Origin: Pseudoxanthomonas sp. F37
GTDB taxonomy: Bacteria > Pseudomonadota > Gammaproteobacteria > Xanthomonadales > Xanthomonadaceae
Direction of reading: 5' to 3'
Length of the DNA: 64,000 nt
NCBI RefSeq assembly: GCF_022965755.1
Contig: NZ_CP095187.1
Location: forward strand, 806,001-870,000
Under the pieces are notes generated by a model, which had not been told where the DNA came from, searched no databases, and saw only the letters and a list, made by a program, of their open reading frames with translations. The position numbers were made by a program, and so were the translations under genes. Positions within the stretch are counted from its first letter, which is position 1; each line of letters starts with the position of its first letter. Below are positions 57,311-61,062 of the stretch, piece by piece.

Positions 57311-57360
57311 TTGACAGAGGATTCGTTTACGCATGTAATCAATAAAAATTACAGGTGTAA
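57311..57360 (+). promoter_or_regulatory. BlaI promoter with two palindromic operators
   Basis: TTGACA (57311-57316), 17 bases, then TGTAAT (57334-57339) is a near-consensus promoter. TTACGCATGTAA (57327-57338) overlaps the -10 box and TTACAGGTGTAA (57349-57360) follows, both with TTAC/TGTAA-type dyad arms like the known BlaI/MecI operator (TACA/TGTA). The second ends four bases before the blaI start codon. Self-repression by BlaI is the natural reading. Confidence 0.82.
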
Positions 57361-57364
57361 ACGC

Positions 57365-57733
57365 ATGTCGATCAGCGATGCCGAAGCCGTGGTGATGGAG
57401 GTGCTGTGGGGACGCCATCCCGCCAGCGCCGAGGACGTGGTCGCGGCCCTGGCGGGGCGGGCCGAATGGGCGGAGCCGACCGTCAAGACGCTACTCAACC
57501 GCCTGCTCAACAAGGGCGCGATCCGGGCGGAAAAGGACGGGCGGCGTTACCTGTATTCCCCCGTCCTCAGCCGTGACGCCTGGCTGGCGGAGCAGAGTGC
57601 GGGAGTGGTGGACCGGCTGTTCGGAGGACGCGTTGCGCCGCTGGTGGCCCACTTCAGCGAGCGACGCAGGCTCTCGCCGGCCGATATCGCAGAACTCAAG
57701 CGCCTGATCGCGGAGCTCGACGATGGTCAGTGA
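57365..57733 (+). CDS. BlaI/MecI family transcription repressor
   Basis: A 122-residue winged-helix repressor. MSISDAEAVVMEVLWGRHPA is the typical BlaI N-terminus, followed by WAEPTVKTLLNRLLNKGAIR (recognition helix) and EKDGRRYLYSPVLSRDAWL (wing). In this family, derepression comes from cleavage by a partner membrane protease. The next gene, an M56 metalloprotease, overlaps it by 11 bases, consistent with that pairing. The frame is open upstream from a TTG that coincides with the -35 box and is rejected as start. Two operators are visible upstream. Confidence 0.94.
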   Translation: MSISDAEAVVMEVLWGRHPASAEDVVAALAGRAEWAEPTVKTLLNRLLNKGAIRAEKDGRRYLYSPVLSRDAWLAEQSAGVVDRLFGGRVAPLVAHFSERRRLSPADIAELKRLIAELDDGQ

Positions 57734-59282
57734 CGCGATGGTGGCCCTGCTCGAGGCGACGCTGGCCAGCACGCTGGCGATCCTGTTGGTGATGACCCTG
57801 CGCGTACCGCTGCGCCGACATCTCGGTGCCGCCGCTGCGCACGCGGTGTGGCTCTGCGTGCCGCTGGTTTGCGTGGCCATCCTGTTGCCGGGACGCCAGG
57901 CTGAAACGCAGTGGGCGCTGCCGCTGGTCGCCGTGCTGCCGCCGGTGCCCCTCGCGGCCGCTGGCGAGGCGAAGCCGCTGGCTCCATGGTCCTCGTGGCT
58001 CTTCTGGTCCTGGTGCGCGGGCGCCATCTTCACCGCGGGCCGGCTGGTCCTGCAGCAGCGCCGCTTCGTCCGTGGACTGGGCCCACTGGCGCCGGCCGCG
58101 CCGGACGTGCTGCATGCGCGCACGTGCGAGGGGCTACCGGCCGCCTACGGCGTACTGCGGCCACGGATCGTGGTGCCGGCCGATTTCCACACCCGCTATA
58201 CGGACGCGGAGCGCGCCCTGGTGCTGTGCCACGAGCGCCTGCACATCCAACGCGGCGACCTGATCGGCAACCTGCTTGCCGCACTGCTGCGCAGCCTGTT
58301 CTGGTTCAACCCGCTGATGCACCTGGCCGCGCGCCTGCATCGCCTGGACCAGGAATTCGCCTGCGATGCGGCCGTCATCGCGCGTCATCCCGGTGAACGC
58401 CGCCGATACGGCGAGGCGATGCTGAAGGCGCACCTGGCCGGCACCCCGCTTCCCGCGGGCTGCCATTGGACGTACCGACACCCGCTCAAGGAGAGAATCG
58501 CCATGCTCAAGCACCCCTTGCACAGCCGCGCCCGCCGGTTCGCGGCGGCCGCACTGGTCATGTCGACGGTCGCCGGCACCGGTATGGCGGCATGGGCCGC
58601 CCAACCTGCAGCGCAGGCGCAGGCCGTGCACGACTTCCACTACCGCATCGGCGCTGCGCTCGAGGTCGATGGCGAGCGCCAGGACTTCGCGCTGCGCGAC
58701 TGGCCGGGACGGAAGGTGGGCTTTGCAACGACCACCCGGGCCGGGCGCGTCTGGCGCATCGAGCTGACCGTCGATCCGGCGCAGCCCGGACAGGTGAAAC
58801 TGGTCGGCGATATCAGCGTGGACGGCAGGCCGCTGTCGGCGCCGGTGCTGATCGGCGCGCTCGACCAGCCGATGCGCATCGAAGCGACCGCGCCGGAGGG
58901 TGGCTCGACCTTCGCGCTGTCGATGGTCGTCAGCCGGCACGATGGCGCACCGGGCCCGGATGCCGCCAGCCTGCCGAAGCAGCCCGCGCCGGCCTACCCG
59001 CAGGAGGCGAAGGCGCTCGGCCAGAGCGGCCACGTCGTGCTGAAGCTCAGGGTGGGGCCCGATGGCCGCGTCCGCGAAGCCGTCGTGGAGGAATCGGTGC
59101 CTGCCGGCCTGTTCGACGCCGCGTCGCTGGCGGCGGCGCAGCGATGGACCTTCGACCCACCGATGGAGAATGGCGTGCCGGTGGAAGGATGGGTGCGCGT
59201 GCCGATCCGATACGACATCGATGGCGGCCACGCCGAAGACGGTGGCGACGTTCCCGCCGCGGCCGGGCAGCCTGCGGGGTGA
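57723..59282 (+). CDS. M56 metallopeptidase with C-terminal TonB domain (BlaR1-like)
   Basis: A 519-residue membrane protease of the BlaR1/MecR1 M56 class. Membrane helices come near residues 5-28, 36-56 and 90-110. The zinc site is HERLH at 170-174 with Glu in QEFACDA at about 211. After another membrane helix (about 265-290), the periplasmic part lacks a penicillin-binding sensor: no SxxK-KTG domain is seen. Instead it ends in a TonB-like C-terminal domain (PAYPQEAKALGQSGHVVLKL, RVGPDGRVREAVVEESVPAG, AQRWTFDPPMENG). So the signal is probably not a beta-lactam. Overlaps BlaI. Confidence 0.9.
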   Translation: MVSDAMVALLEATLASTLAILLVMTLRVPLRRHLGAAAAHAVWLCVPLVCVAILLPGRQAETQWALPLVAVLPPVPLAAAGEAKPLAPWSSWLFWSWCAGAIFTAGRLVLQQRRFVRGLGPLAPAAPDVLHARTCEGLPAAYGVLRPRIVVPADFHTRYTDAERALVLCHERLHIQRGDLIGNLLAALLRSLFWFNPLMHLAARLHRLDQEFACDAAVIARHPGERRRYGEAMLKAHLAGTPLPAGCHWTYRHPLKERIAMLKHPLHSRARRFAAAALVMSTVAGTGMAAWAAQPAAQAQAVHDFHYRIGAALEVDGERQDFALRDWPGRKVGFATTTRAGRVWRIELTVDPAQPGQVKLVGDISVDGRPLSAPVLIGALDQPMRIEATAPEGGSTFALSMVVSRHDGAPGPDAASLPKQPAPAYPQEAKALGQSGHVVLKLRVGPDGRVREAVVEESVPAGLFDAASLAAAQRWTFDPPMENGVPVEGWVRVPIRYDIDGGHAEDGGDVPAAAGQPAG

Positions 59283-59287
59283 GGCGT

Positions 59288-59839
59288 ATGCGAGGTCCGG
59301 GATATCGCGGCGTCCCCATGCGGATCGTCGCCTGCGCCATGGTGGCGTGCACGGCCGCCGGCTGCGCGCATCGCGTCGAACAGGTCGATCAGCGCCTGCT
59401 GTTGCCCCAATCGGCCGGGCACTACCAGATGGCGCCGCACCAGGCCTTCGTCTACCCGGTGCCGATCCAGATGGCCGGCCCTGCATTCCCTGCCGCGGGC
59501 ATGCCACGCGAACTGCCGCCCCTCACCCTGTGCGTATCCTTCGTGGTGGATGCCGAAGGCAAGGCGACGCGGGTCGCCCCCCTTCGGCAGGCGGGCTGCG
59601 CTGATGGCGCATCGCAGCCTTCGCTGCGCGATGCCGCGCTTTCCGCGGTGGCGGGATGGACGTTCGAGCCGGCCATGTTCTGCGACTATCCGGACGCGGC
59701 GAGCCGCGACCGCGACTGGAACGGCGACGGCTGCGCCGGCGAGCGCGTGCAGGCGCGCGTGGTGCCGGTGTCCCTGGCCTATGCGTTCACCTTCGAGATC
59801 CGCGAAGGCAGGCAGCGCGTGGCCACGCGCAAGCGCTGA
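59288..59839 (+). CDS. Lipoprotein with TonB-C-like domain
   Basis: A 183-residue lipoprotein: MRIVACAMVACTAAGCAH supplies the signal and lipobox AAGC. The mature part contains CVSFVVDAEGKATRVAPLRQ and LRDAALSAVAGWTFEPAMF, which mirrors the TonB C-terminal pattern (a DxxG turn, then AALxAxxxWxF) of its M56 neighbour. It starts five bases after that gene and probably works with it. The first ATG (59288) follows GGGGTGAGG; a second ATG at 59318 sits directly before the signal peptide. It ends convergently on the flavin reductase gene. Confidence 0.75.
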   Translation: MRGPGYRGVPMRIVACAMVACTAAGCAHRVEQVDQRLLLPQSAGHYQMAPHQAFVYPVPIQMAGPAFPAAGMPRELPPLTLCVSFVVDAEGKATRVAPLRQAGCADGASQPSLRDAALSAVAGWTFEPAMFCDYPDAASRDRDWNGDGCAGERVQARVVPVSLAYAFTFEIREGRQRVATRKR

Positions 59840-60413
59840 CGCTCACTGCTCCAGCATGTCCGGCCGGAACAGCCGGCGCCGGGGAGACCTCGCGGCCGGC
59901 GATCATGAAGCGGCCGTCGCCTCGGTAGTGCACCGTGCGCGGGATGCGCGGCGAGGGGGCGACATGCGCCGCCACCACGCGCCACACGAACAGGGGGTAG
60001 TCGGCGGTGATGCGCGTTTCGTGCAGGCGGCACTCGAACTGCGCGTGGCATTCGGCGATCCGCGGTGCCCCGACTTCGCGCGAGGACAGCGGCGTCAGGC
60101 CGAAGCGCTCGAACTTGTCCTGCTCGGTGCTGCTGCAGTTGCTGATGCGCACCACCGTGTCCAGCAGGTCCTCGGTCGGCAGGTTGATCACGCACTCCCG
60201 GCTGGCCCGGGCCAGGGCATGGCTGCGGTTGGCATCCCAGATGTACGTGCCCACCAGGTCGTAGCCCAGCATCATGTGCCAGCCCAGCGTCATGATCGCG
60301 CGCTCGCCGCGGTGGGCGGTGCTCAGCAGGACCACCGGGCCCGGCTCCAGGTAGCGGCGGGTCTGGTCGACGGGCAGGGACTTCCAGCGCTTGGCCTGTT
60401 TCATGCGGGACAC
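59787..60413 (-). CDS. Flavin reductase family protein, probable frameshift near the 3' end
   Basis: A flavin-binding reductase-like protein with a PNPOx-like split barrel (MLGYDLVGTYIWDANRSHAL, ECVINLPTEDLLDTVVRISN, HYRGDGRFMIAGREVS). As read, the frame runs 208 residues and overlaps the opposite lipoprotein gene by 53 bases. Its last about 30 residues are unlike the family. Removing one C from the CCCC run (complement of 59881-59884) gives the ending RRRLFRPDMLEQ at 59843, without the overlap. The corrected product would be 189 residues. Either a real frameshift or a sequencing error. Substrate partner unknown. Confidence 0.82.
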   Translation of the reverse strand: MSRMKQAKRWKSLPVDQTRRYLEPGPVVLLSTAHRGERAIMTLGWHMMLGYDLVGTYIWDANRSHALARASRECVINLPTEDLLDTVVRISNCSSTEQDKFERFGLTPLSSREVGAPRIAECHAQFECRLHETRITADYPLFVWRVVAAHVAPSPRIPRTVHYRGDGRFMIAGREVSPAPAVPAGHAGAVSVSACAWPRAACLRGSRR

Positions 60414-60444: not shown

Positions 60445-61062
60445 TCAGTCGAGGACGTGTGTGGAATCGGCCACGCGACGCACTTCGTCCGGGTGATGGC
60501 TGACGTAGACGATGGGCAGGCGGATCTCGTCGCGCACGCGCTGCAGGTAGGGGATCAGTTCCTCCCTGCGGGCCTGGTCCAGCGACGACAGGGGCTCGTC
60601 GAACAGCAGCAACGACGGTTGCGAGAGCAGGGCGCGGCCGATCGCCACGCGCTGCGCTTCGCCGCCGGACAGGTTGCGCGTGCGCCGGCCGAGCAGGGGC
60701 GCGATGCCGAGCAGGTCCACGACCGCATCGAATCCGAACCTCGGCGCGCCGCGCCCGCCATGGCGCCCGTAGAGCAGGTTGCGGCGCACGTCCAGGTGCG
60801 GGAACAGCCGCGCATCCTGGAACACGTAGCCGACGCGGCGCTGGTGCACCGGCACGTCGATGCGGCGCGCGCTGTCGAACAGGCAGCGGCCGTCCACGGC
60901 GATGCGGCCGGCGACCGGCGCCACCAGTCCGGCGATGGCGTTGAGGACCGAGGTCTTGCCGGCGCCCGAGGGGCCGACCAGCGCGATCACGCGCGCGCCG
61001 TCCTCGATGCGCACGTGGCGATGGAAGGTGCCGCGCCGAAGTTCGATGTCCAGGTCGAGCAT
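60445..61062 (-). CDS. modC: Molybdate ABC transporter ATPase ModC, short form
   Basis: The ATP-binding subunit of the molybdate importer. The 205-residue protein has Walker A GPSGAGKTSVLNAI, signature NLSGGEAQRVAIGRALL, Walker B LLLFDEPLSSLD and His-switch YVSHHPDEV. It stops after the nucleotide-binding domain, so the molybdate-binding C-terminal Mop domain of the usual 350-residue ModC is missing. The start ATG shares its first base with the modB stop (TGATG). Last gene of the modABC unit. Confidence 0.92.
   Translation of the reverse strand: MLDLDIELRRGTFHRHVRIEDGARVIALVGPSGAGKTSVLNAIAGLVAPVAGRIAVDGRCLFDSARRIDVPVHQRRVGYVFQDARLFPHLDVRRNLLYGRHGGRGAPRFGFDAVVDLLGIAPLLGRRTRNLSGGEAQRVAIGRALLSQPSLLLFDEPLSSLDQARREELIPYLQRVRDEIRLPIVYVSHHPDEVRRVADSTHVLD

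Follow-up and report, generated by a model that had tools for sequence, protein, structure and literature searches.

A probable one-base frameshift at the end of a flavin reductase-like gene in Pseudoxanthomonas sp. F37

The closest described counterparts of the gene considered here are the flavin reductase-like proteins of Pfam family PF01613 and, as the closest solved relative by sequence (E 5.6e-33), 3e4v, an NADH:FMN oxidoreductase-like protein with FMN. A second point of comparison is provided by known single-base frameshifts, seen as recent pseudogenes or as base-call errors, in which one extra base goes together with a jump of homology from one reading frame to another. The copy in Pseudoxanthomonas sp. 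F37, located in a 64,000-nucleotide stretch of the chromosome (hereafter the window, with positions counted from its first base), appears to differ from other PF01613 proteins in having lost the conserved C-terminal tail through a frameshift. It shares with the known frameshifts the one extra base, the jump of frame and a remnant that differs only silently from the closest relatives, and nothing sets it apart from them. The finding is thus an ordinary one: a common enzyme gene with a one-base frameshift close to its end.

As read, the gene occupies positions 59787–60413 of the minus strand and encodes 208 residues from a GTG at 60413, with a match to PF01613 at E 2.4e-24. The profile covers residues 24–164 at 86.6 bits, against a curated cut-off of 27, while NCBIfam returned no match for the protein. 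The AlphaFold2 model of a close relative (L033), standing in for the window protein, is like 3e4v in fold and retrieved it first from the PDB (E 2.3e-16, TM 0.84, 39% identity), as is consistent with an FMN-binding split barrel. Its predicted function is that of an ordinary Xanthomonadaceae flavin reductase with an FMN-binding split barrel, and a search of the genus found the gene as a single copy in the window's genome. The ATG at 60404 aligns with a methionine in many relatives and is on this comparison the likelier start, so that the GTG at 60413 probably does not serve as one.

Family sequence extends over residues 1–177 of this open reading frame, with residues 178–208 out of frame. The break coincides with a four-base G run at 59881–59884 (CCCC in the sense of the gene, minus strand) that is one base longer than in relatives. 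Alignment with three relatives (G012, G027 and G030) identified the additional base, at any one of the four positions, as an insertion specific to the window's genome against all three. Across 30 loci (L032–L061), the longest run in the 21 bases near the site is 2 or 3 in every case, and a four-base run occurs there in none. Beyond the run, the +1 frame encodes RRRLFRPDMLEQ followed by a stop codon at 59843–59845, so that a remnant of the conserved tail, with its stop (59843–59881, minus strand), survives intact as DNA in a frame that the remainder of the gene does not share. All 12 residues of this remnant recur in L032 and L033, the nearest of the named relatives, and the first arginine is conserved in at least 90% of 40 aligned homologues, which together indicate that the +1-frame tail is not a product of chance.

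The gene as read also runs 53 bases (59787–59839) into a convergent gene on the plus strand (59288–59839), which is kept in relatives. The minus-strand portion beyond the restored stop (59787–59842) is a spurious read-through. An earlier note on this DNA had pointed to this overlap and the odd C-terminus, and had proposed a probable single-base frameshift in the G run, whose correction by one base would restore the tail and a stop at 59843 and abolish the overlap. Each of these points holds on comparison with relatives: removing one base leaves a gap of 3 bases between the restored stop and that of the plus-strand gene, equal to the gap in L033 and L039. Stop-to-stop gaps in the six loci for which the opposite gene was found are 3, 3, 13, 1386, 4 and 12 bases. 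The best explanation, to which we assign a probability of roughly 0.96 on the strength of these sequence comparisons, is that the gene carries one base more in the run than all relatives examined there and is thereby frameshifted, through either a recent mutation or an assembly error. In the sequence as it stands, the additional base shifts translation by one position after residue 177, at the cost of the conserved 12-residue tail and with the gain of 31 unrelated residues. The consequence is mainly one for annotation: the last 31 residues of the called protein and its 53-base overlap with the neighbouring gene are both false.

The reading frame of homologues bears this out. In the genus search, 32 of 38 genomes, among them that of the window, had a match and six had none at E 0.001, with a few further genomes showing weak matches only. 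Most strong matches stop at query residues 177–179, and the three that are longer (L007, L019 and L024) continue across a TGA that is the relative's own stop. A scan of named genomes yielded 48 loci, the nearest being those of Pseudoxanthomonas mexicana DSM 17121 and Pseudoxanthomonas sp. Root630 with 94% over the best segment. Among the 77 loci compared (L003–L079), 76 had a match, corresponding to 67 distinct proteins after allowing for nine pairs found in both collections. The frame continues past the site and stops 8–16 residues after the match in 75 of the 76 (66 of 67 distinct), with an in-frame tail that is mostly RRRLFRPDMLEQ in Pseudoxanthomonas. The sole exception, L030 from genome G034, has a frameshift of its own and leaves the frame near residues 102–108. 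None of the 76 loci ends with the unshifted sequence, nor is any truncated like the window protein, two outcomes on which the earlier note had made its proposal depend.

These comparisons also bear on whether the unshifted end could be a genuine new C-terminus of the species. The frame does stay open for 31 further codons, but most of these are antisense to the convergent gene, no in-frame homologue was found in the 76 loci, and the end is modelled with pLDDT below 50. The odd end matches DNA of three genomes (G012, G014 and G030), read there in another frame. We regard a new C-terminus as scarcely credible, the least probable of the explanations considered.

A further reading is that ribosomes slip by one base at the run, in a programmed or tolerated manner, and so produce the full tail. 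The tail is indeed perfectly preserved in the +1 frame, but in relatives the frame is continuous and needs no shift, and the site itself varies in sequence among them, unlike a conserved slip site. In addition, re-pairing of the codons TCC and CCG would be poor after a shift of one base, and the site lacks a stop codon. A four-base run is short for slippage, and the codons at this run form no slip site known to us. A search of the genome for repeats of a motif around the run gave a single exact match and 15 others with one mismatch, against 9 for a backward control, which is uninformative. Ribosomal frameshifting is accordingly judged very unlikely, and a variant in which the DNA is correct and inefficient +1 slippage gives the flavin reductase two alternative C-termini is rated even lower.

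The frameshift itself, our preferred reading, may have arisen in the living strain or in the assembly, and we judge a very recent mutation and a single-base assembly error to be about equally likely. Comparison of the 36 bases following the run shows one silent change relative to L032, two relative to L033, and three silent changes with one amino acid change (E/A) relative to L039. As the differences from the two nearest relatives are all silent, the change is either very recent or a base-call error. Such tail DNA without decay is what would be expected of a sequencing or assembly error in a strain whose gene is intact, for which we see an even chance, and it provides no additional decay in support of a real mutation. 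The body of the gene also shows the usual mixture of silent and amino acid changes: on its own branch there are 8 amino acid to 22 silent changes in comparison with L033 (outgroup L039) and 6 to 7 in comparison with L032, which are small numbers. From these counts there appears to be no clear relaxation of selection on the gene body.

A real and very recent frameshift in a dispensable gene, giving a beginning pseudogene or a protein with an altered end, comes a little short of even odds in our assessment. Loss of the gene seems tolerable because part of the genus (the six of 38 genomes above) has no match and because two homologues look broken at other places: L030, and L047, which keeps its tail in frame and is broken near residue 29. 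The latter derives from a metagenome assembly, however, and its break may itself be an error. The window protein also changes a glycine that is identical in all 40 other aligned sequences, but this is not telling, as 9 of those 40 rows also contain one such unique change. If the extra base is real, it is a further recent frameshift, and one in a gene absent from part of the genus.

The quality of the assembly was addressed by a survey of indels in 264,000 bases of the window's 3,971,652-base chromosome against stretches of three relatives, counting only bases for which two or more of these gave coverage. One-base indels specific to a single genome numbered 14 in 207,638 bases for the window's genome, 12 in 195,568 for G030 and 28 in 198,882 for G027. 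The window's assembly thus shows no excess relative to G030 and G027, which argues against error at the run. As far as can be discerned, intergenic DNA, gene ends and leaders account for nearly all of the 14. Because most of the DNA is coding, errors would be expected chiefly within genes, where the 14 mostly do not lie, and most of them are therefore probably real evolutionary changes in a good assembly. A filter for indels inside genes called in relatives retained three of the window genome's 14, two of G030's 12 and two of G027's 28; the G027 gene called at the present site in this filter follows an overlapping frame and is wrong. Among the window genome's three, the indel at 760729 is at an apparent leader and that at 950867 is backed by one relative's gene call. 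Both are therefore doubtful, leaving the flavin reductase indel as the only own-specific one clearly within a coding region in the 207,638 bases. This is counted in favour of error, and it would fit either a rare residual error or a recent real frameshift. Against error, the window contains 332 runs of at least four G or C, among which the run at 59881–59884 is unremarkable, so that in this GC-rich genome its four bases are weak evidence for one; the 61 runs of at least five yielded no other clear coding frameshift.

A crude gene caller and codon-phase alignments produced many rows with off-phase heads, from which nine places besides the present one were inspected. All nine were explained by leader indels, starts called too far upstream or neighbouring genes, and these nine were not counted as frameshifts. 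A comparison of open reading frames from stop to stop, aimed at a frameshift rate, was swamped by the false frames of a GC-rich genome.

The predicted effect on the protein was assessed with AlphaFold2. The L033 protein, modelled from 40 sequences, has a mean pLDDT of 90.9, with values of 94 for residues 171–180 and 77 for residues 181–186, and contains a strand at 171–174 and a short helix at 181–184. The window protein, modelled from 41 sequences, has a mean of 83.7, falling to 56 for residues 171–180 and below 50 for residues 182–205, low values that are partly expected for a tail shared by no aligned sequence. Strand 171–174 is absent from its model. These models suggest that the tail belongs to the fold and that its loss would probably harm the protein. 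If the extra base is real, the catalytic domain should be largely kept, with the last strand and the tail disordered, and the enzyme would probably be weakened or unstable.

No tRNA gene was found within the window, and searches of plasmid and phage collections gave no match. On the minus strand, positions 60445–61062 encode a ModC-like ATP-binding protein of 205 residues that matches positions 2–205 of the 353-position ModC model. Truncation of this protein was considered and rejected, as relatives end at about the same place and a short ModC is normal in the group. On the other side, the plus strand encodes a BlaR1-type M56 peptidase fused to a C-terminal TonB domain (57723–59282), which is preceded by a BlaI/CopY-like repressor gene (57311–57733).
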